The notes under the pieces: generated by a model
The model's database searches: none
Told to the model about the DNA's origin: nothing
Seen by the model: the letters and a program-made list of their open reading frames with translations, nothing else
Position numbers and translations under genes: made by a program
Assembly: GCA_027485815.1 (NCBI GenBank)
Contig: JAIXQE010000207.1
Location: 1 to 64,000 of the forward strand
From: Opitutaceae bacterium
Lineage (GTDB): Bacteria; Verrucomicrobiota; Verrucomicrobiia; Opitutales; Opitutaceae
Direction: 5' to 3'
Length of the DNA: 64,000 nt
Shown: in pieces, positions 42,674 to 54,196 of the stretch
Layout of the letters: every line of letters begins with the position of its first letter
Position numbering within the stretch: the first letter of the stretch is position 1

Positions 42674-43723
42674 TCAGGCGCCCGCGGGCCGCAGCAGGCC
42701 CTCGCGCACCATCAGCTCGGCGTTCTGGACGGCGTTGAGCGCCGCCCCCTTCCAAAGGTTGTCCCCGCTCACCCAGAGGGCGAGCCCGTTGTCGAGCGCG
42801 GTGTCGAGCCGGATCCGCCCCACCCCGCACTTCACCTTGCGGGAAAACTCGAGGGGGGTCGGGTAACGCCGCTGCGCGGGGTCGTCCACCAACTCCGCGC
42901 CGGCGAACGCCGCGATCGCGGCCCGGGCGGCCTCCACCGTGACCGGGCGCTCGAACTCCGCATTCACCGCCACCGAATGCGCCCGCACCACGGGCACCCG
43001 CACCGTCGTCGCCGAGACGCGCAGACCGGGCAGGCCCATGATCTTGCGGCTCTCGAGCATCATCTTCGTCTCCTCGCCCGTGTAGCCGTTCGGACCGAAC
43101 GAATCCACCTGCGGGATCAGGTTGAAGGCGATCGGGTACGGGTAGACCTTCGGCTGCGCCGCCGCCCCCCGCACGTGCCCCTGCACCTGCTCCTCCAACT
43201 CGCGGATCGCCTCGGCCCCCGTCCCGGAGACGGACTGGTAGGTCGCCGCAAAGTAACGCCGCAGCCCAAAGGCCTGGTGCAGCGGCCAGAGCGCCATCAG
43301 CGTCACCGCGGTCGAGCAGTTCGGGTTGGCGATGATCCCGCGGTGCCGCCGCAATTCCCCCGGGTTGATCTCCGGAATCACCAACGGGACATCCGGCTCC
43401 ATCCGGTAGTGGGAACTCTTGTCGATCACCAGGCATCCGGCACGGACGGCATCCGGCGCCAGCGCGCGCGTGACGGATCCGCCCGCGGCGAAAAACGCGA
43501 GGTCGACTCCGGCGAAGACCCCGGGGCGGGCTTCCTCAATCGGATAAGTCTTCCCCGCGCAGGTCACGGTCCGCCCTGCGGACCGGGCCGAGGCGAACAG
43601 GCGCAACGATTTCAGGGGGAACCCCCGGTCGCGCAGCAATTGCAGCAGCTCTTGACCGACGGCGCCCGTGGCGCCGACGATGCCGACCGTGACAGAGGGT
43701 GAATTCACGCGGGAATCAGCCAT
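42674..43723 (-). CDS. asd: Aspartate-semialdehyde dehydrogenase
   Basis: VTVGIVGATGAVGQELLQLLRDRGFPLKSLRLFASARSAGRT; IANPNCSTAVTLMALWPLHQAF; start 43723 (ATG) or 43708 (GTG). Confidence 0.94.
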   Translation of the reverse strand: MADSRVNSPSVTVGIVGATGAVGQELLQLLRDRGFPLKSLRLFASARSAGRTVTCAGKTYPIEEARPGVFAGVDLAFFAAGGSVTRALAPDAVRAGCLVIDKSSHYRMEPDVPLVIPEINPGELRRHRGIIANPNCSTAVTLMALWPLHQAFGLRRYFAATYQSVSGTGAEAIRELEEQVQGHVRGAAAQPKVYPYPIAFNLIPQVDSFGPNGYTGEETKMMLESRKIMGLPGLRVSATTVRVPVVRAHSVAVNAEFERPVTVEAARAAIAAFAGAELVDDPAQRRYPTPLEFSRKVKCGVGRIRLDTALDNGLALWVSGDNLWKGAALNAVQNAELMVREGLLRPAGA

Positions 43724-44252
43724 GCAGCTGGCGAGCAAAGCCTGCGCGCGACTGGGCATCAAGCCCGGACCTCGCCTGCTGCTCGTCCGCATCGGCGCCG
43801 CCACCCTGCAGTTTTACCGCGACGACCGCCTGGTCCGCGCCTACCCGGTCTCCACCTCGCGCCGCCCGCCCTCCAACGTCCGCGACTCCCTCGGGACCCC
43901 CCGGGGCTGGCACGTCATCGCGGAACGCATCGGCGCCGGTCAGCCCGCCGGGATGGTCTTCCGCGCCCGCGTCCCCACCGGCCGCCACTGGAGCGAGGTT
44001 CCGCCCGGCCCCGACGGCCAGGCCCCGGACCTCGTCACCTCACGCATCCTGTGGCTGCGCGGCCTGGAGCCGGGGGTGAACCTCGGGGGCGACGTCGACA
44101 CCTACGCCCGTTACGTCTACATCCACGGGACCAACCACGGCGACCGGATCGGCGAACCGCTCAGCGCCGGCTGCGTCCTGCTCCGCGACGTGGAGATGAT
44201 CGAGCTGTTCGATGAGGTCCGCGTCGGGGACCTCGTCTGGATCACCGACTGA
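43722..44252 (+). CDS. L,D-transpeptidase (YkuD/ErfK family), no obvious signal peptide
   Basis: AYPVSTSRRPPSNVRDSLGTPRGWHVIAERIG; YIHGTNHGDRIGEPLSAGCVLLRDVEMIELFD (HGT...SxGCVxLR catalytic motif). Confidence 0.9.
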   Translation: MQLASKACARLGIKPGPRLLLVRIGAATLQFYRDDRLVRAYPVSTSRRPPSNVRDSLGTPRGWHVIAERIGAGQPAGMVFRARVPTGRHWSEVPPGPDGQAPDLVTSRILWLRGLEPGVNLGGDVDTYARYVYIHGTNHGDRIGEPLSAGCVLLRDVEMIELFDEVRVGDLVWITD

Positions 44253-44949
44253 CCCGCGCCGCAGGCCGGTCGACGAGCAAGCGGTGCTGGACCGCGAAGG
44301 TGCCCGCCCGCAAGGGCGGTAGCAGCAGGAGCAGCGCGCGTTCACCCTCCGCCAGGTTCCACTCCGTGCTCAGGGCCTGATACGTCGCTTCCCGGGAACG
44401 CGTCCGCAGCACCAACTGTCCCGCCCGTGGCACCGCCTCCGCGCGATTGGGGCCCGGCCCCGGTTTCAGCGGACGGCCGTTGAGGGTGCCCTCCAGTTCG
44501 AGTCCGCTCAGGTTGACGAGTACCCATTGGCCGGCGCGGAACCTCGTCTCCCCGTCCTCCAGCACGATCGTGCGCCAGCGGCCTGCGGGCTTTTCCTCCG
44601 GAAGCAGTACGATCAGCGCATTCGCCACGCCCGCCGGGAGCTCCGCCTCAGCCAACGGGGCGCGGTCCTGCGGGGCGATGAAGCGCAGCGTCGCCGGCCC
44701 CCGGTACTCGTAGCGCGGAGACCGCGCGAGCGGGTAAAACCGCAGCCGGGTCGGCGGCTGTCCTGGGGCGGCAACGAACGCCGCTGCCCCCGGCGGACGC
44801 GGGCTGAAGACCGTGAAACGCAGGGTCAAGGGGGTGGCGGGGCTTCCCGCGCGCAGGGACCCAACCGTCCAGCCGCCGGCGTAAGCGGCCGCGCTGATCA
44901 GCCACCGCCGGCGAGGATTCGGGTGCCCGGCGGCAACGTCCCCGCTCAT
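44242..44949 (-). CDS. Hypothetical protein, last gene of the pseudopilin operon
   Basis: ATGA overlap with upstream gene; N-terminal RRRWLISAAAYAGGWTVGS then low-complexity beta-rich protein. Confidence 0.75.
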   Translation of the reverse strand: MSGDVAAGHPNPRRRWLISAAAYAGGWTVGSLRAGSPATPLTLRFTVFSPRPPGAAAFVAAPGQPPTRLRFYPLARSPRYEYRGPATLRFIAPQDRAPLAEAELPAGVANALIVLLPEEKPAGRWRTIVLEDGETRFRAGQWVLVNLSGLELEGTLNGRPLKPGPGPNRAEAVPRAGQLVLRTRSREATYQALSTEWNLAEGERALLLLLPPLRAGTFAVQHRLLVDRPAARVSR

Positions 44950-47900
44950 AGGTCGGGCTGCGTCAGCCACCGGAGGGAGAGAATCCGAAAGCGACGGCCG
45001 TTGGCCAGGTTCAGCGGGCTGGTCAGGCTCTCCGGCAGCACCTCCGCGGCATCCCCGGTCAGGTCCCCGTTGCCCGTCGGCGGATCGAAGTACTCCGGTA
45101 CCCGCTGGACGAGCGCCTCACACCAGGCGCGCCCCTCCGTCGCATTGGTGGCGGGGTTCACGGCTTCGCCGTAGGCCCGGATGGTGAAGGTATCCGAGCG
45201 CGCGAAAAGGACGGGGGCGAGCGCCGTCATCACGTCGCCCTGCGTGAGCCATTGGGAATTCAGCTGCACCTTGGCCTCGGGATCAAACTCCGCCACGGCG
45301 GCGTTGATCCCGGTCTCGGCGATCGCGGCCTCGAGCAGGCTGCGCGGGATCTCCCCGCCCTCCGCGTCGACCGTCGCGTAACGCGGGTGCGGCGCGAGGA
45401 AGTCCCCGACCGAGAGAAAAGGTCCCTCCTCGCCGTGCCGGGCCGTGATCAACTCGACGATCTTCGCCGCCAGCGCCGCGATCTCGGTCGCGCTCAGCGT
45501 GCGCATCCCGCGGCGGAACAGCTCAGTGCGGGCGGCCGAGCCCGCAGGATCGGCCCGACTCGCCTCCGTCTGGTAAGTCTCCTGCGCGGTCTGCGAAAAA
45601 CGGAGGAACTGCGCGTTGGTCGACTGGATCGTGGCGACCGAGGTGTCACCGGAGGGGACCCCGGTCGAGGAAGACAGACTGAGGTAACGGAAGGTCTGCG
45701 GACTCGGGAAACGCACGCCGCGCAGCACCGCGACCCACGCGGCGACATTCGTGGAGTTCAGGTTAAAAGCTCCGGCCTGCAGGAAGAACCGGGACGAGCG
45801 CGCGTCCGCGGCGCTGACGGCGCCGGCCGGATCGAGGCCCTCCACCGTGGCGCGCAGATCGTCGACCGTCGGCTTGCGGTAGCCCACGCCCGGCTCGTAC
45901 CAGCGGGCGGTCCGCAGCAGCGGGTTCGGCACAATGAGGTCCCCGTTCGCCGCCACCCCCGGCGTGAACCCGTCGCGCACGCCGGAGAAGAAGTACCGGT
46001 CGAAGACCTCTCCCACCGGCACCCCGTTGAGTTCCTGTCCGAACCCCCACGAGTTCCCGATCATGAACGGTCGCTGGCCCGGCAGGCGGAAGTGCTGGGC
46101 CGCGCCGAGGGAAAGCAGCGGGGCGCGCGGGAGTTCAAAGATGGGCACGTCCTCGTTGTAGGAGCGGGAGGTCGTTCCCTCCCCCCGGTCGAGCAAACGG
46201 TCGGGCGCGCCGATGGTGCGGTAATTCACGTACAGCGCGGGGTCGTTGCCGTTCTCGCCCGTCACGAAGGCCTCGCCCGGCAAGCGGCGGCGGCGCGGAT
46301 CCAATCCCGTCGTGCTAAGCCAACGACCGGGCGCCGCGGGGGTGTCGATGCTCTCCGCCAGCCGGAAAACATAGGAAAACTGGGTGGAGGTCTGCCGGGC
46401 GGCCTGAGGAGAAGAGGCAAACTGGGTGACGAACTCCGGCGAAACGTAAGTCGCCAGCTTCACCGGTGGCGCCGGTGGCTCATCGGGCCCGGTGCGCGGA
46501 ACCATGTAGACGGTGATGGTGACGCGGTCCGCACCGTCCACCTCGAGCACGTGGCTGTCGCTGCCCAACTGCTCGCCGAGGGGCAGCGGGCGCACCGCGG
46601 CGGAGGCGCCGGCCGCGTCCAGCGTCCGCGAGTAGAACTGGCTGGCAAATCCGGTCTCCGGCGGCTGCTCGGACTGGCTGTTGTCCGCAATGGAACGCCA
46701 GGTATACACTCGACCCGGCAGCCATGACTGGCGGTCCGCGTTGGCACCGTCGGGGGTCCACGGGAGATTGATGATCAGGGGACGTTCCGCGAGATCCGGA
46801 TCAATCGGGGGGGAACCGAACACGGATTCATCCTGCACCGCGAACGAGCCAACCGGCACGGGGCTCTCCCCCTGCACATTGACCACCCGGATGCTGCGCG
46901 GCAGGCCCGTGATCTCGAGCCGCAGGTTCTCCGGCACCAGCGCGGAGGTGTACGGGTTCCAGAGGGAGACCAGCCAGCGGGCCGCGAGCTCGAACGGGCG
47001 GGCGGCGGCGGTGTCGCCGGCGGTGCGAACGTTGAAGGAGAGCAGGAAGTACGAAAGTACCGGCGCGATCTGGTGCGCCCCACCCTCCCCCAGCAGCGGC
47101 GGCGTGATCCGCAACCGGCGACGGACCGGATCCGAGCCGTAGGCCGGCAAAATCGCCGGCGGGGCGATCGCCGCGAGCGCCGGATCGACCGTCTCCGGAT
47201 CCACCGGCGCGGTGCTCTCGGTGTACGCGGGGTAATTGGTCCACGCCGCGAACGCCGACCCGAGCAGCCCGGGGGCAAGCGAGAGATCCTGCCGCAGCCC
47301 GCCCCGCCGCGAATCGGCGAGCACGGCCAGATTGTTGGGTGACCAGACGTGGAAATTCGCGCGCTGCAACGGATGCCCGAGCTGGCCGTTCCCAGAGTTC
47401 CGGAGGAATCCGAGCTGGCTCGGGGTGAGCACCCGATCGCCCGCCACCAGCGGTGCGTTGTTCGCATCGCGCGGCTCGAACACCGGACTGCCATTCGTGC
47501 CCGCGGCCCCGGCCCCGACCGCCAGGTGCTGTCGGACGCGGCCGCGCAGGTCCGCCGAATCGTAGGGCGCGGCGGTGAGCGTCCCCGAGGTGTCCGGGAC
47601 GGCGACCGGGGCCTTCACGCCCTCATCCCCCACCCACCACGCATAGCGGCCGTACGTGGCGTCGGCGTTCGGTGACCCGGGCAACCCGCGCGCGCGCAGG
47701 TCCTGGAGCGGGACGCTGACGAATTGGGCGCGGCTCGTTGTGTTGGTGGTTCCGCGGGCAACGAGATCGATCGCCCGGGCAGGCGGGGGCGCGCTGGCCG
47801 GGGTCACGGCGAGCGCGGCTGGCTGGTCTGAACCCGTGGCGGCGGTCGCGAATTCATTGCCGCTCACCAGCCAGGTGATCGGTCCCGTTCCATCCGGACC

Positions 47901-48188
47901 CCAGACCCCGGTGTAATAACGGGTGCCGTTGACGCCGCCAAACGACGCCGCGGTGGCGGTCGCCCGCTGGTCCGGGCCGGCGTGGCGCTGCAGCTGAGCG
48001 AGCGCCACCTGCAGACCGGCGAGGGCGTGCTCCCGGGCCTGCGCCTGGCGCTGCGTGTTGCCGGCGACCGAAGTCTCGATGCGCGTGTAGGCGGCGAGGC
48101 CGACGAGCAGCACCACGATGAACGCCAGGAGCGTGACGACGATGAGCAGCGCGAAGCCGGGCCGCGCGGGCGACCGGAGCCGGCTCAC
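44946..48188 (-). CDS. Giant GspK/PilX-like pseudopilin, Verru_Chthon cassette protein A-like
   Basis: About 1080 aa; prepilin-like N-terminus RPGFALLIVVTLLAFIVVLLVGLAAYTRIETSVAGNTQRQAQAREHALAGLQVALAQLQRHAG; neighbours match cassette proteins C, B and D; GTG start overlaps next gene. Confidence 0.85.
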   Translation of the reverse strand: MSRLRSPARPGFALLIVVTLLAFIVVLLVGLAAYTRIETSVAGNTQRQAQAREHALAGLQVALAQLQRHAGPDQRATATAASFGGVNGTRYYTGVWGPDGTGPITWLVSGNEFATAATGSDQPAALAVTPASAPPPARAIDLVARGTTNTTSRAQFVSVPLQDLRARGLPGSPNADATYGRYAWWVGDEGVKAPVAVPDTSGTLTAAPYDSADLRGRVRQHLAVGAGAAGTNGSPVFEPRDANNAPLVAGDRVLTPSQLGFLRNSGNGQLGHPLQRANFHVWSPNNLAVLADSRRGGLRQDLSLAPGLLGSAFAAWTNYPAYTESTAPVDPETVDPALAAIAPPAILPAYGSDPVRRRLRITPPLLGEGGAHQIAPVLSYFLLSFNVRTAGDTAAARPFELAARWLVSLWNPYTSALVPENLRLEITGLPRSIRVVNVQGESPVPVGSFAVQDESVFGSPPIDPDLAERPLIINLPWTPDGANADRQSWLPGRVYTWRSIADNSQSEQPPETGFASQFYSRTLDAAGASAAVRPLPLGEQLGSDSHVLEVDGADRVTITVYMVPRTGPDEPPAPPVKLATYVSPEFVTQFASSPQAARQTSTQFSYVFRLAESIDTPAAPGRWLSTTGLDPRRRRLPGEAFVTGENGNDPALYVNYRTIGAPDRLLDRGEGTTSRSYNEDVPIFELPRAPLLSLGAAQHFRLPGQRPFMIGNSWGFGQELNGVPVGEVFDRYFFSGVRDGFTPGVAANGDLIVPNPLLRTARWYEPGVGYRKPTVDDLRATVEGLDPAGAVSAADARSSRFFLQAGAFNLNSTNVAAWVAVLRGVRFPSPQTFRYLSLSSSTGVPSGDTSVATIQSTNAQFLRFSQTAQETYQTEASRADPAGSAARTELFRRGMRTLSATEIAALAAKIVELITARHGEEGPFLSVGDFLAPHPRYATVDAEGGEIPRSLLEAAIAETGINAAVAEFDPEAKVQLNSQWLTQGDVMTALAPVLFARSDTFTIRAYGEAVNPATNATEGRAWCEALVQRVPEYFDPPTGNGDLTGDAAEVLPESLTSPLNLANGRRFRILSLRWLTQPDL

Positions 48189-49279
48189 AGCGCACCTCCC
48201 CGCAGGACGATCCGGCGCGTGTACACCCGCGAGTTCTCGGCGGCGACGCCCCACCACCAGAGCTGGGCGTTGCCATTGTAGCGCTGGGGCACCGCGAGGG
48301 CGGGCGTCTGCACCTTCTCCAGGTTCGCGATCTGCTCCGCGCCGGTGTCGGTGAGAATCCGCACCATCACGTCGATCACGTCCGGGAAGATCCTGCTGTA
48401 CGTGGACGCCGTGGCCGGAGTGCCCGGGGGCAGGCGCGACTGGAGGGCGACGGGCGCGTTGGACAAGGCCCCCGCGGCGGTCGCCGGAAAGAGGAGCCGG
48501 AGGCCGCCGGGGGCGGCGGCGTCTCGGGCGTAGGCGCGAATTCCGAAATCAATCACGTTGTCGCCGATCACCGCGTCGAGCGTCCGGGCCGTTCCGGGCA
48601 CGAGGACCGTGCGGGGATCGCCGGTGACGTTGCTGTTGTTTGTGCCTCCGCTGGTGTAGGCGGCGCCAGTGAGGTTGTAACCGGACTCGAAGACGCCGGG
48701 TCGACTGTTGGCGAGGAAGGGACGGGCCTCGGCACGATGCAGGAGATACGCGGTCTCGAGGTTCGCCGGATTCGTAGCCGTGTAGCGCCGAATGATCTGG
48801 TAGCCCACCGCCACCGGCGCGGAGGGCACGGTGACATCCTGCGTGGCGTTGGTCACCGAGGTGCCATGGGTGAAGAAGCGCAGCCAGACCCCGGCCGTCC
48901 CGAACCGGGCGTCATTAATCGAGGGGGTATTCAGCAGGAGCGAGATGCCGCCGACAGGTTTCGGATTCCGTGGCGCGATCTGCCACAGGCCGGTGGCGCC
49001 GCCGCTGGCCCCGTTGAGCACCTCCGCCGCCAGCCAGACGCTGCCGTCGTCACGGTAAAGCGCAGACTGCAGGTCCCGCTCGATCTGGTCTAGGATCAGC
49101 CTCGCCTGCGCGTCGGCGCCCAAGCGGGAACTGGAGCGTGCGGCCGTCGCGGAGATGTTCATCACGATCACCGCGATGAAGCCGGCGATGAAGGTCGTGA
49201 TGCCGGCGGCGACCAGCAATTCCACCAGGGTGAAGCCGGCGCGCGCGCGCGGCGCGGAACGAACAGGTGGGGCGTTCAT
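48185..49279 (-). CDS. Pseudopilin, GspJ-like / Verru_Chthon cassette protein C-like
   Basis: RAGFTLVELLVAAGITTFIAGFIAVIVMNISATAARSSSRLGADAQARLILDQIERDLQSALYRDDG; the ORF-track start at 50212 is over-extended. Confidence 0.85.
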   Translation of the reverse strand: MNAPPVRSAPRARAGFTLVELLVAAGITTFIAGFIAVIVMNISATAARSSSRLGADAQARLILDQIERDLQSALYRDDGSVWLAAEVLNGASGGATGLWQIAPRNPKPVGGISLLLNTPSINDARFGTAGVWLRFFTHGTSVTNATQDVTVPSAPVAVGYQIIRRYTATNPANLETAYLLHRAEARPFLANSRPGVFESGYNLTGAAYTSGGTNNSNVTGDPRTVLVPGTARTLDAVIGDNVIDFGIRAYARDAAAPGGLRLLFPATAAGALSNAPVALQSRLPPGTPATASTYSRIFPDVIDVMVRILTDTGAEQIANLEKVQTPALAVPQRYNGNAQLWWWGVAAENSRVYTRRIVLRGGAL

Positions 49280-49902
49280 CGCTCCAGCACCCCCGTGAAG
49301 TACAAGACCTGCTTGCGGCCGTGGTCGAAGGCGACCGGCCCCCCGGAATTCTGCGCGGATTGCACCGCCGCCCCCGGGGCCACCTGGATGAAGGCCGGCC
49401 AGCGCACGCGCAGCGTGTAGACGACCGCGGAGGCCGTCGCATCGAACTCGGCGGGCGACACCGCGGGCTGCCGGATCAGGTCGATCTCGAAGAACTTGTC
49501 CGTGTTCGGCATCACGCGGTTGCGCGAGTCGTACCACTGCCGGCGATTGGAGGCGCTGTCGTAGATGCCCACTTCCCCGTCCAGCTTCCCGAAGAGCACC
49601 TCGGGGTAGCGCGTGCCGTCGTTCGGGTTGTAGGCGCCGTTCGCGTCCTTCGCTTGCACTGCCGCCGGGGACTGAATGAGCGCGAGGCCGGTCTCGAACG
49701 GGACCGCGCGCAGGCGGGCGCGAACCGCCTCGGCCACGCGGGCGGCGGCCTCGGCGTCGGCCACCCCGCCCACCGCCCGGGTCACGGGCGCGTAGAGCCC
49801 GGCGACGGCGAGCATTCCGATGCCGAAGATGACCACCGCCGCGATGACCTCCACGAGGGAGAAGGCGGCGCGCGACCGCGCAGGGCAAAGGGGGGGGCGC
49901 AT
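49276..49902 (-). CDS. Pseudopilin, GspI-like / Verru_Chthon cassette protein B-like
   Basis: RAAFSLVEVIAAVVIFGIGMLAVAGLYAPVTRAVGGVADAEAAARVAEAVRARL; ATGA overlap with next gene. Confidence 0.85.
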   Translation of the reverse strand: MRPPLCPARSRAAFSLVEVIAAVVIFGIGMLAVAGLYAPVTRAVGGVADAEAAARVAEAVRARLRAVPFETGLALIQSPAAVQAKDANGAYNPNDGTRYPEVLFGKLDGEVGIYDSASNRRQWYDSRNRVMPNTDKFFEIDLIRQPAVSPAEFDATASAVVYTLRVRWPAFIQVAPGAAVQSAQNSGGPVAFDHGRKQVLYFTGVLER

Positions 49903-49904
49903 CG

Positions 49905-50663
49905 TCAGAAGCCCGTAGCGGAATCGACCATCGCGACCGCTCCGTTCCGCCGGATGAAGAGGCCGCGGACCGTGGTCGCACTATCGAAGGCCGGCAGGCT
50001 GTTGCCACCCAGCACCGCGGTGGTGAGGGCGATCTTGGTGGGATTTCCGGTCGTGTTTGAGACCACGGTGCCATCCGGCCCGAACTCCAGGTAGTGGATC
50101 CGGCCGCTCTGACCCTGGCGGTCGAAAAACTGGTTCGTGCTGGCGGCGGACTGCCCCCGGTAGCTGAATCCCGTGGCGGTGAGCAACGTCGAGACCGGCC
50201 CCGTGGCCGCATTGTTATTCCAGCTCACGCCGGAGCGCAGGTGATTGGTCGGCACCGGCGCCGGCGGCACCACGCAGATCGGGGTCGGCAGCGAGACCGC
50301 CGGGCCGGCGGCGACCCAGACGACCTGCCCGTTGGGGAGGGTTTCACGCCGGATCACCTGCAGACAGCGGAGGTACATCTCCGCGTCGAGGGCATTCGCC
50401 GCCGGGGGCTGCTGGGCATGGATGATGAGCCGGGCGGGCGACTGGTGCAGCGCCGCCTGCGCGCGGGTGCTCGCGACCATTCCCGCGAGGATGGACTGGG
50501 CCCCCGAGAGCGCGGCGCCCGCACTCCCCCGCCCCGCCAGCGCCATCGCCCCCACCCCGGCCAGCAGCACCATCACGCCGATCACCACCAGCAACTCGAC
50601 CAGCGTGTAGCCCCGGCGGAGCACCGCGGGCCGCGGGGAACAACTGGGCCGCAGGGAGCGCAT
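49905..50663 (-). CDS. Pseudopilin, GspH-like / Verru_Chthon cassette protein D-like
   Basis: RRGYTLVELLVVIGVMVLLAGVGAMALAGRGSAGAALSGAQSILAGMVASTRAQAALHQSPARLIIH. Confidence 0.85.
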   Translation of the reverse strand: MRSLRPSCSPRPAVLRRGYTLVELLVVIGVMVLLAGVGAMALAGRGSAGAALSGAQSILAGMVASTRAQAALHQSPARLIIHAQQPPAANALDAEMYLRCLQVIRRETLPNGQVVWVAAGPAVSLPTPICVVPPAPVPTNHLRSGVSWNNNAATGPVSTLLTATGFSYRGQSAASTNQFFDRQGQSGRIHYLEFGPDGTVVSNTTGNPTKIALTTAVLGGNSLPAFDSATTVRGLFIRRNGAVAMVDSATGF

Positions 50664-51410
50664 TTACTTCCAGCTGAAAATGAAGTCCGAGGCCGTCCGC
50701 GCCCCGTCCGGCAGCGAGTAGAAGGCGACGCCCACCCGCAGCCCCCCTTGCGCGACCGTGGGCAGGTCGGGGGTGGTCCCGGTGGTGACCGGGCTGAGCC
50801 GCAGCCCCGTGTTGTCCGGCGGCGCCACGGCGGGAACCGTGGTGATGCCATCGCCCCCCGCCCCGCCGACCTTGATCGCCCCGTCGAGATTGCGGTCGAC
50901 GAGCACCGCGATGTCGGTGCCATCGAAGGCGTCCCGGATCAGGCCCCGCTTGGCGGCGAGGGAGGCATCCGGCGAGGACACCGGAACCATGTCGGCCTCG
51001 GTGAAGGTGATGAACTGGATGCGGCGCGTGTTCTGCGCCTGCGGTGGCGGCGGATTGCCGGTCATCGTGGTCGGCAACGCGACGCCGTCCCGCCGGGCGC
51101 CGACCAGGGTCTCGTAGAACCGGTGCACAGCCGCGAGGTTGGCGCCGCCCGCGGTGTTGCCATTGACCTTGTTCGCGCCGGCACCCGTGGTCTCGAACGT
51201 CGGATAGTAGCCGTATTCCTGCCGGAAGGCCTCGATCGCCCCCGCCCACTGCGCGAACTGGCCCCGGGTCTTGGCCTTCTTGGCGGCGGTTCGAGCCGAG
51301 GACGTCGTGGGCACGAGAATCGCCGCGAGGATGCCGAGGATCGCGATCACGGTCAGCAGCTCGATCAGCGTGAAGCCGGGGCGGCGGTGGGGGGCGGTCA
51401 GGCGGCGCAT
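50664..51410 (-). CDS. Type II secretion/type IV pilin GspG-like pseudopilin
   Basis: RRPGFTLIELLTVIAILGILAAILVPTTSSARTAAKKAKTRGQFAQWAGAIEAFRQEYGYYPTFE. Confidence 0.9.
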   Translation of the reverse strand: MRRLTAPHRRPGFTLIELLTVIAILGILAAILVPTTSSARTAAKKAKTRGQFAQWAGAIEAFRQEYGYYPTFETTGAGANKVNGNTAGGANLAAVHRFYETLVGARRDGVALPTTMTGNPPPPQAQNTRRIQFITFTEADMVPVSSPDASLAAKRGLIRDAFDGTDIAVLVDRNLDGAIKVGGAGGDGITTVPAVAPPDNTGLRLSPVTTGTTPDLPTVAQGGLRVGVAFYSLPDGARTASDFIFSWK

Positions 51411-51423
51411 CGTGCTCGGGACT

Positions 51424-52128
51424 TCAGGGGTTGGCGTAGAGGTTGTCGACCATCTCCGCGGACTGGGCCGCGAGGAAGAGGCCGGACGTCACGGTGATGG
51501 GGGGCGTCTGCGTGCCGTTGGGCGCCACCTTGGGACCGGGCGAGAACAGCACGTAGGAGGAGGCCTGCCAGCCGGCGGGGCTGCGGGCGTTCTTATAATA
51601 GTAGGAGTACCGCCGCTCCCACGGATCCAGCAGGCAGGCGTTCTGCTCCGGCTTGGAGGGCGGGTTCGGGGCGTTGCTCACCGGCTGCAGGAACTGGTTG
51701 GTTAGCGTGCCGTTCACGACGAAGCGGCCCACCTCGATGAGGTTGGGGCCATTGAGCCGGGTGGAAAGATCTCGGGCACCAAACGTACCGGTCAGGCAAT
51801 TGAACAGCTTGGCCTGGGCGGTCTGGACGCCGGGGCCGGCCGTTAGCGCCGTGGGCGTCGCCGAAGCCTGGGTGAACTCGCCCGTCTGCGGGTAGTCCCC
51901 GTAGAGCCGCCGGAAGTCCTCGAGGGCGGTGGCCAGCGCGGCCAGTTCCGCCCTCGCCCGCGCCGTCTGCGCCCGCTCCTTGACGCCGCGGATGGCGCCC
52001 ACGGAGAGCGTGAACAGGACGGCGACCACCGCGGTGACCGCCAACACCTCCAGCAGGGTGAAGCCCGCCCGCGCGCAACCCGTTTCCCGAGCGGGAGGAA
52101 TCGTCGTGGGCGGGTGGGCGCGCGGCAT
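51424..52128 (-). CDS. Type II secretion GspG/GspH-like pseudopilin
   Basis: RAGFTLLEVLAVTAVVAVLFTLSVGAIRGVKERAQTARARAELAALATALEDFRRLYGDYPQTGEF. Confidence 0.88.
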   Translation of the reverse strand: MPRAHPPTTIPPARETGCARAGFTLLEVLAVTAVVAVLFTLSVGAIRGVKERAQTARARAELAALATALEDFRRLYGDYPQTGEFTQASATPTALTAGPGVQTAQAKLFNCLTGTFGARDLSTRLNGPNLIEVGRFVVNGTLTNQFLQPVSNAPNPPSKPEQNACLLDPWERRYSYYYKNARSPAGWQASSYVLFSPGPKVAPNGTQTPPITVTSGLFLAAQSAEMVDNLYANP

Positions 52129-52237: not shown

Positions 52238-54196
52238 TCAGTCCTCGGCCTGGAGTGCCGCCACGACGCTGAAGTCCTCCAGCGTCGTGGTGTCGCCGCG
52301 GACCTGCCCGCCGGCGGCGATCTCCTTGAGGATCCGGCGCATGATTTTCCCGCTCCGCGTCTTGGGCAGCGCGGCCGCGAAACGGACCGCATCCGGCTTG
52401 GCCAGCGAGCCGATCTCCTTGCCCACGTGGTTGCGCAGCGTCTCCTTGAGTTCCTCCGTCGCCTCGATCCCGGACTTGAGGGTGACGAAGACGCAGAGCG
52501 CCTGACCCTTCAGCTCGTCGGGGCGGCCCACGGCGGCGGCCTCCGCGACGGACGGGTGGGAAACGAGGGCGCTCTCCACCTCCGCGGTGCCGATGCGGTG
52601 GCCGGAGACGTTCAGGACGTCGTCGATGCGGCCGACGATCCAGAAGTAGCCGTCCTTGTCCTGGCGTGCGCCGTCGCCGGTGAAGTAGACCCCGGGATGG
52701 CCGGGGAACTCGGAGAAGTACTGCCGCTGGTAGCGCTCGTCGTCGCCCCAGAGGGTGCGCAGCATCGAGGGCCAGGGCTGGGTGATCACGAGCTTGCCGC
52801 CGGAGTTCCGGGGCACCTCGCGGCACTTCTCGTCGACGACCTTCGGCACGACGCCGAAGAACGGCCGCGTCCCGGAGCCGGGCTTGGTCGGCGTGACGCC
52901 CGGCAGCGGGGTGATCATGATGGAGCCCGTCTCCGTCTGCCACCAGGTGTCGACAATGGGGCAGCGCTTCTTGCCGATCATCGTGTGGTACCACATCCAG
53001 GCCTCGGGATTGATGGGCTCGCCGACGGAGCCGAGCAGCCGTAGCGAATCGAGCCGGTGCCGGAGCACGTAATTGTCGCCCCAGCGCATGAACGCGCGGA
53101 TCGCGGTCGGCGCGGTGTAGAGGATCGTCAACCCGTGGCGGTCGATCATTTCCCAGAAACGGTCGGGCTCCGGGTGGTTGGGCGCGCCCTCGTAGATGAA
53201 CACGGTCGCGCCGTTGGAGAGCAGGCCGTAGACCACGTAGCTGTGACCGGTGATCCAGCCGATGTCGGCGGAGCAGAAGTAGCGGTCGTTCTCCTTGAGG
53301 TCGAAGACGTAGTGGGAGCTCAGCTTCGCGCCGAGCAGGTAGCCGGCGCTGGTGTGGAGGACGCCCTTGGGCTTCCCGGTGGAACCGCTGGTGTAGAGGA
53401 TGAAGAGCGGATGCTCGGAATCGAACGCCTTGGCCTTGTGCTGATTGGGGGCGCCTGCCCAGGCATCCTTCCACCAGACGTCACGGCCCTCGGTCATCGC
53501 GACCGGGTTGCCGCAGCGCTTCACGACGATGACCGATTGCACCGAGGGCGTGCCCTCGAGCGCCTTGTCGACGTTGGCCTTGAGCTCGATCACCTTGCCC
53601 CGGCGCCAGCCGCCGTCGGCGGTGATCACCAGCTTGGCCTTGCAGTCGTTGATGCGGTCCTTGAGCGACTCCGGGCTGAAGCCGCCGAAGACCACCGTGT
53701 GGACGGCCCCGATCCGGGCGCAGGCCAGCATCGCGATCACCGCCTCCGGGATCATCGGCAGGTAGAGGGCGACGCGGTCGCCGGCGCCGACGCCCATGTT
53801 CTCCAGGATGTGCGCGAGCCGGCAGACGTGGAAGTGCAGCTGCTTGTAGGTGATCGTGCGGACGTCGCCCGGCTCACCCTCGAAGATCAGCGCCGCCTTG
53901 TTCTCCCGGGCCGTGCCCAAGTGCCGGTCGAGGCAATTCTCCGCCACGTTCAGCCGACCGCCCACGAACCACTGGGCGTGCGGAGGATCCCACTTGAGGA
54001 CCTTCCGGTAGGGTTTGCGCCAGACGAGCTGCTCCTTCGCCTGCCGGTCCCAGAATTTTTCTGGGGAGTTGACAGACTCGGCGTAGAGCTTCTTATACCG
54101 AGTCTCGCTCCCAAGGTTCGCTTGGGCTTTGAACTCGGCCGAAGGCCTGAATTTCCGGGACTCCCGGGATACTGAGGTAATCGTCTGGTCTGGCAC
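52238..54196 (-). CDS. acs: Acetyl-CoA synthetase
   Basis: [104 protein letters not shown]. Confidence 0.97.

Follow-up and report, generated by a model that had tools for sequence, protein, structure and literature searches.

The seven-gene pseudopilin operon

The window analysed here is a 64,000-nt stretch of an 85.8-kb contig from a 97% complete Opitutaceae metagenome-assembled genome (4.08 Mb in 232 contigs). At positions 44242–52128 of its minus strand, it contains an operon of pseudopilin-like genes that comprises seven intact, tightly coupled open reading frames (ORFs). In the order of transcription, these are separated by gaps of 13, 0 and 2 bp and then joined by 4-bp overlaps at 49276–49279, 48185–48188 and 44946–44949. 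The original prediction, made from the letters of this stretch, had described seven minus-strand genes with gaps of at most 13 bp and ATGA/GTGA overlaps, and all of this was found as stated. A scan of the operon for promoters and terminators returned matches at chance level only.

Six of the seven encoded proteins have a prepilin-type N-terminus, each with a leader and a hydrophobic helix, and five passed the cut-off of a prepilin-motif model (NCBIfam TIGR02532 or Pfam N_methyl). The first gene, g1 (51424–52128), encodes a GspG-like pseudopilin of 234 aa (GFTLLE) with ordered orthologues, which scored 24 bits against TIGR02532 (cut-off 16.3) and 26.6 bits against Pfam T2SSG (cut-off 21). It is followed by g2 (50664–51410), encoding a second GspG-like pseudopilin (248 aa, GFTLIE; TIGR02532, 32.7 bits), and by g3 (49905–50663), encoding a GspH-like minor pseudopilin (252 aa, GYTLVE; 21.8 bits), for which the best equivalog hints, XpsH and GspH, were below cut-off. 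The product of g4 (49276–49902) is a GspI/PilV-like minor pseudopilin (208 aa, AFSLVE) that scored 19.6 bits against TIGR02532 and 22.0 bits against PilV (cut-off 52.2). The assignment of g5 (48185–49279) as a GspJ-like minor pseudopilin (364 aa, GFTLVE) is based on the family alignment; most genomes that have g5 contain a single strong copy. A giant GspK-like protein of 1080 aa is encoded by g6 (44946–48188), which has a GTG start; it was characterized from its ORF, its relatives and an AlphaFold2 (AF2) model, and its motif, GFALLI, lacks Glu5. The last gene, g7 (44242–44949), overlaps g6 by ATGA and encodes a secreted protein predicted to consist of two tandem β-sandwich domains. The products of g1 to g7 are referred to below as G1, G2, H, I, J, K and X.

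The transcription order is thus GspG-G-H-I-J-K-like, with Glu5 missing in K alone. The ORFs and motif models confirm the six prepilin-like N-termini, this order and the K-like protein of about 1080 aa, as originally proposed. The class III leader, the hydrophobic helix (residues 11–70 in K) and a prepilin peptidase (Peptidase_A24) elsewhere in the genome together place the proteins among prepilins of the type IV pilus (T4P) superfamily.

Comparison with curated families

In searches against the GspG–K families suggested by the original prediction, one assignment was supported at the level of Pfam, g1 alone passing T2SSG. The GspG–K equivalog cut-offs were all unmet: the best GspG score was 46.4 bits (cut-off 88.85), obtained with G2 over its N-terminal 63 residues only, and the best GspK score was 26.4 bits (cut-off 130). 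The GspK proteins of the relatives' own type II secretion systems (T2SS) also miss the GspK cut-off.

The original prediction had further likened the operon to the Verru_Chthon cassette, proteins A–D. Against the protein A model, TIGR02600, K scored 25.1 bits (cut-off 332.3) over residues 11–73 only. The models for B, C and D (TIGR02598, TIGR02599 and TIGR02596) gave 16.7, 21.5 and 18.1 bits, respectively, against cut-offs of 51.4, 256.5 and 70. All four models match the cassette at the prepilin N-terminus only, and none of 115 relatives reached the TIGR02600 cut-off. As a positive control, two genomes of a wider Verrucomicrobiota sample contained genuine A proteins, scoring 952–1432 bits, and their B, C and D proteins passed as well. 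These genuine cassettes indicate that the test is valid and that the window fails it. Membership of Verru_Chthon was therefore rejected on the four failed cut-offs, the working control and a differing gene order; matches confined to the N-terminal motif were an outcome that the original prediction had itself named as counting against the resemblance. A literature search on Verru_Chthon found no paper in the collection searched.

Proteins K and X

The AF2 model of K (pLDDT 88.4, pTM 0.89) begins with a 60-residue helix. This N-terminal pilin helix (residues 11–70; 47979–48158) is the only part of K with significant similarity to GspK, profile comparison with hhalign yielding an E-value of 2e-6 for the N-terminal ~85 residues or columns. 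Beyond the helix, the best conserved part is the C-terminal core (residues 795–1080; 44949–45806), which contains the motifs FNxNST and RSDTFxIRAYGE. Between them lies an insertion of ~480 residues (~305–790; 45819–47276). In two relatives, otherwise complete cassettes encode at the same operon position short K proteins of 432 aa (L234:6674–7972) and 446 aa (L235:6658–7998). In profile comparison, these align to residues ~1–300 and to the C-terminus of K and lack residues ~305–790. Because the alignment of the short proteins is confined to the two ends of the K profile, we describe the giant K as a GspK-sized core bearing a large head. The short proteins are natural head-less versions of K and should be useful for structural work.

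Searches with the remainder of K were negative: Pfam identified no domain in the protein, neither Pfam nor NCBIfam contained a family matching it beyond the N-terminal helix, and its sequence had no relative among solved structures at E 1. A Foldseek search of the whole K model against the PDB and BFVD (viral) returned nothing below E 0.02, although single domains may escape a search with the whole chain.

X has an N-terminus of the secretion type, and its two tandem β-sandwich domains were predicted with a pLDDT of 90.6. In the PDB, X came closest to PepT transporters, whose tandem Ig-like ectodomain it resembles in fold only (E 8e-6; TM ~0.3–0.5). X had no match among Pfam or NCBIfam families, and comparison of its sequence with solved structures gave chance-level matches only. 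The original designation of g7 as an unknown final gene holds in so far as no family matched, but it missed the association of X with K. K is directly followed by X in 91 of 100 loci, with ~15 loci counted twice, and in 59 of 64 (~92%) of the named set; the pair, moreover, multiplies independently, as described below.

Conservation and loss across relatives

More than 20 Opitutaceae, at identities down to ~40%, retain the order acs-G-G-H-I-J-K-X, and the giant K is present in 87 of 115 relatives, as a single copy in most members of the family. This identical gene order, together with the frequency of K, indicates that the operon is not a chance assembly. Directly next to full cassettes lie acs and rho. 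In the window, acs (acetyl-CoA synthetase; 52238–54196, minus strand) is the conserved upstream neighbour and was not judged to be part of the machine.

J and K occur together. Across the whole family, 55 genomes have both, 14 have neither and 4 are discordant, counts whose significance is inflated by the shared descent of the genomes. Among family genomes that are at least 90% complete, 45 have both proteins, two have K without J, none has J without K and nine have neither. The cassette is absent from about a fifth of family genomes. At the syntenic sites behind acs, it is gone as a whole from five genomes that retain acs. The joint gain or loss of J and K and the empty or reduced sites behind acs indicate that the cassette behaves as a single dispensable unit.

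Two such sites carry single cassette genes. In one (L253:2777–3583), a degraded, truncated g1 adjoins acs near coaE and rho and is a remnant of a lost cassette. In the other (L254:9187–9999), an intact-looking X stands alone behind acs in a family member that has none of the genes G to K; this X may have a K-independent role or be a recent leftover.

Downstream of the operon, an L,D-transpeptidase (YkuD) gene (43668–44252, plus strand) is convergent with g7 and overlaps its end by 11 bp. This gene and an aspartate-semialdehyde dehydrogenase gene were considered as parts of the system and rejected: they are shared with two relatives of ~90% identity (the dehydrogenase gene also with genome G055) and are not general. 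A tRNA gene (Rfam RF00005; 42588–42661, minus strand) lies just downstream of the dehydrogenase gene.

K–X as a separable, multiplying module

K and X also occur apart from the other cassette genes. At ~32 loci, the pair stands alone, without a nearby prepilin gene. Conversely, three operons of other Opitutales (L237, L238 and L239) consist of G-G-H-I-J without K, each gene having the corresponding cassette gene as its best match, in order, and two further operons (L226 and L229) consist of H-I-J without K. The genomes with these K-less operons contain between one and at least seven K loci elsewhere; the counts are lower bounds, seven candidates per genome having been scored. Two K–X loci were found in Cerasicoccus frondis. 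K–X is thus an independent module, separable from G-G-H-I-J and expanded in relatives.

The surroundings of the orphan pairs differ from those of full cassettes. A LacI-family regulator lies within ~10 kb of 12 of 32 orphan K–X loci, as compared to none of 26 full cassettes (p 3e-4). Sulfatases show a weaker trend (7 of 32 versus 1 of 26).

Motor, secretin and prepilin peptidase

No homologue of GspE, GspF or GspD, or of PilB, PilT, PilC or PilQ, was found in the window or in the 20 kb of contig that follow it. Nor were GspC–F, GspL or GspM found there with the cassette pseudopilins. The original prediction had noted the lack of GspE, GspF and GspD in the window and had named a complete, directly adjacent GspC–M operon as evidence against a stand-alone set; the next 20 kb contained none of these.

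Candidate machinery is encoded on other contigs of the same genome. C63 carries a coaE-rho-pilB-pilT-pilB-pilC cluster, C142 has PilMNO-Q together with genes resembling PilV/W/X, C31 encodes a T2SS, and C101 contains a second GspG-H locus, in which a GspK match occurs. The only prepilin peptidase found is on C75. These loci agree with the earlier proposal that the stand-alone cassette borrows a motor from elsewhere. In the six relatives for which the distance was measured, pilB-pilT-pilB-pilC lies 8.5–9.6 kb upstream of the cassette.

Two further features of these loci were recorded. The T2SS secretin of the genome occurs as two adjacent ORFs (L168:7835–10266, on C31), each with a signal-peptide-like start, one containing the N-domains and the other the secretin domain; this is either a split GspD or a frameshift. 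At the PilMNO-Q locus, a very large secreted protein (~2316 aa) is encoded directly after the PilQ gene (L169:1323–8273).

Interpretation

The cassette is real, conserved and outside the curated families searched. It is a T4P-superfamily minor-pilin cassette, and its main new point is the K–X module. It is established (see also PMC7541494, PMC6211770) that minor pilins, or pseudopilins I, J and K, constitute an assembly-priming tip complex, which in type IVa pili (T4aP) is joined by PilY1, a large protein at the tip. We consider it somewhat probable that the operon encodes such a priming and tip complex for a T4P-superfamily filament that is built on a shared motor and carries K–X as an exchangeable head. 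In this model, G1 and G2 would be pseudopilins of the shaft or adaptor type, nucleation and priming of the filament would fall to H, I and J, and K would cap it, its GspK-sized core bearing the ~480-residue head. X would be exported and would probably bind K or the tip that is presented outside the cell. Assembly would depend on machinery shared with other systems, namely the single prepilin peptidase found, PilB/PilT/PilC and a PilQ-type secretin. K–X would then be the ligand-facing unit, most plausibly contacting surface material such as glycans.

One close parallel is the FimU-PilV-PilW-PilX-PilY1 set of T4aP, which serves in priming and at the tip, includes a very large tip protein and is often encoded away from the motor; in relatives, a PilT-containing motor lies near the cassette. 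By contrast with that operon, the PilV match is below cut-off and Pfam found no PilY1 domain, and here the K pseudopilin itself carries the large tip part as a fusion, whereas in T4aP this part is a separate protein. Within the Verrucomicrobiota, a T4P-like system of Akkermansiaceae attaches to fucose-rich glycans and is drawn with coaE and rho as neighbours (PMC13174399), the genes that also flank pilBTBC in our genome. That system, MUL2, differs in comprising Amuc_1099–1102 (PilM and a pilin-like protein), and the likeness noted here is one of system type and neighbours. In another member of the Opitutales, an alginate-induced cluster encodes a PulG-like pseudopilin, and its authors suggest T2SS export of alginate lyases (PMC13274419). 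The LacI neighbourhoods together with these two reports suggest a glycan role, and we hypothesize that K–X has one.

Several points weigh against this interpretation. The motor genes of our genome are unlinked to the cassette, and co-occurrence of motor and secretin was rejected as a means of assigning them, being uninformative where both are near-universal in relatives. Similarity to GspK throughout the body of K, which in GspK includes the DExGK and NVNTA region, was not significant: the alignment is collinear, but without the N-terminal helix its E-value is 0.063, versus 0.44 for a reversed control. The intact-looking X in a genome without K indicates that X is not strictly K-dependent, and the J matches of L237–L239 are moderate (72–92 bits). 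The LacI enrichment was measured against full cassettes rather than a genome-wide baseline, and several of the orphan loci come from one genome. Finally, the contact between K and X, their location at the tip, the identity of the motor and the type of ligand are inferred.

It is less likely, though worth serious consideration, that the operon specifies a dedicated type II-like pseudopilus in which K acts as the receptor for cargo and the exported substrates are X or enzymes whose genes lie near K–X pairs. The cassette shares with the T2SS its GspG-H-I-J-K order, prepilin N-termini, a K without Glu5, a homologous N-terminal helix and, in the short K proteins, the size of GspK. The T2SS motor of the genome could be shared, orphan K–X pairs have LacI regulators and some sulfatases in their vicinity, and the PulG-like gene of the alginate-induced cluster (PMC13274419) fits export. 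However, the body of K has no detectable homology to GspK, the operon contains neither GspC–F nor GspL–M, and the T2SS and the second GspG-H locus have their own pseudopilins and a true GspK. Moreover, X lacks any enzymatic domain, the single-copy cassette lies beside acs and rho rather than exported enzymes, and the motor gene cluster nearest to it in relatives includes that of the PilT retraction ATPase.

That the cassette is a divergent member of the Verru_Chthon family appears improbable. Verru_Chthon loci have much the same parts, stand-alone H-, I- and J-type minor pseudopilins with a K-like protein of 1200–1300 aa, and several copies occur in some genomes of Verrucomicrobiota. All six genuine A proteins also have a weak, collinear second match to K at residues ~160–218, and K and A may have a distant common ancestor. 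Nevertheless, besides the failed cut-offs in the window and in all 115 relatives, the six genuine loci are ordered B-C-A-D or A-B-C-D and have neither a GspG pair nor X. At two of the genuine loci (L188:3618–10014 and L189:3958–10182), the gene directly upstream of that for A encodes a secreted protein with a PEP-CTERM-like tail, and in L189 an in-frame fusion joins this protein and A in one stop-free open frame of 2074 aa.

We give slightly less credence still to a role in DNA uptake, as a pseudopilus or minor-pilin set of the competence type: a single-copy, chromosomal cassette adjoining housekeeping genes would suit that role and ComG-type models were among the weak N-terminal matches, but the scores are far under the ComG cut-offs, the cassette is lost from several complete family members, and multiplication of K–X beside LacI regulators would not be expected. 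Least probable of all is a decaying or neutral leftover without a present role, for although remnants exist and about a fifth of family genomes lack the cassette, its seven frames are intact and its motifs conserved in orthologues to 40% identity, and K–X multiplies elsewhere.

Returning to a priming and tip complex with K–X as its head, the multiplication of the module, often beside sugar-use regulators, suggests tips that can be exchanged to take hold of different materials. A more speculative extension, which we advance tentatively as possible, is that each genome has one G-G-H-I-J fibre operon, which can be combined with many alternative giant tips. K–X pairs would then be plug-in heads with their own ligands, each switched by carbohydrate regulators encoded nearby, and Opitutales could in this way re-tool one pilus machine for different polysaccharides. 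For annotation, the Verru_Chthon label should not be transferred to these loci. Should K–X prove to be an exchangeable tip, the pilus superfamily would have in it a counterpart of swappable adhesins, and some of the many pseudopilin genes that have been reported from Verrucomicrobiota would gain a role that can be tested.

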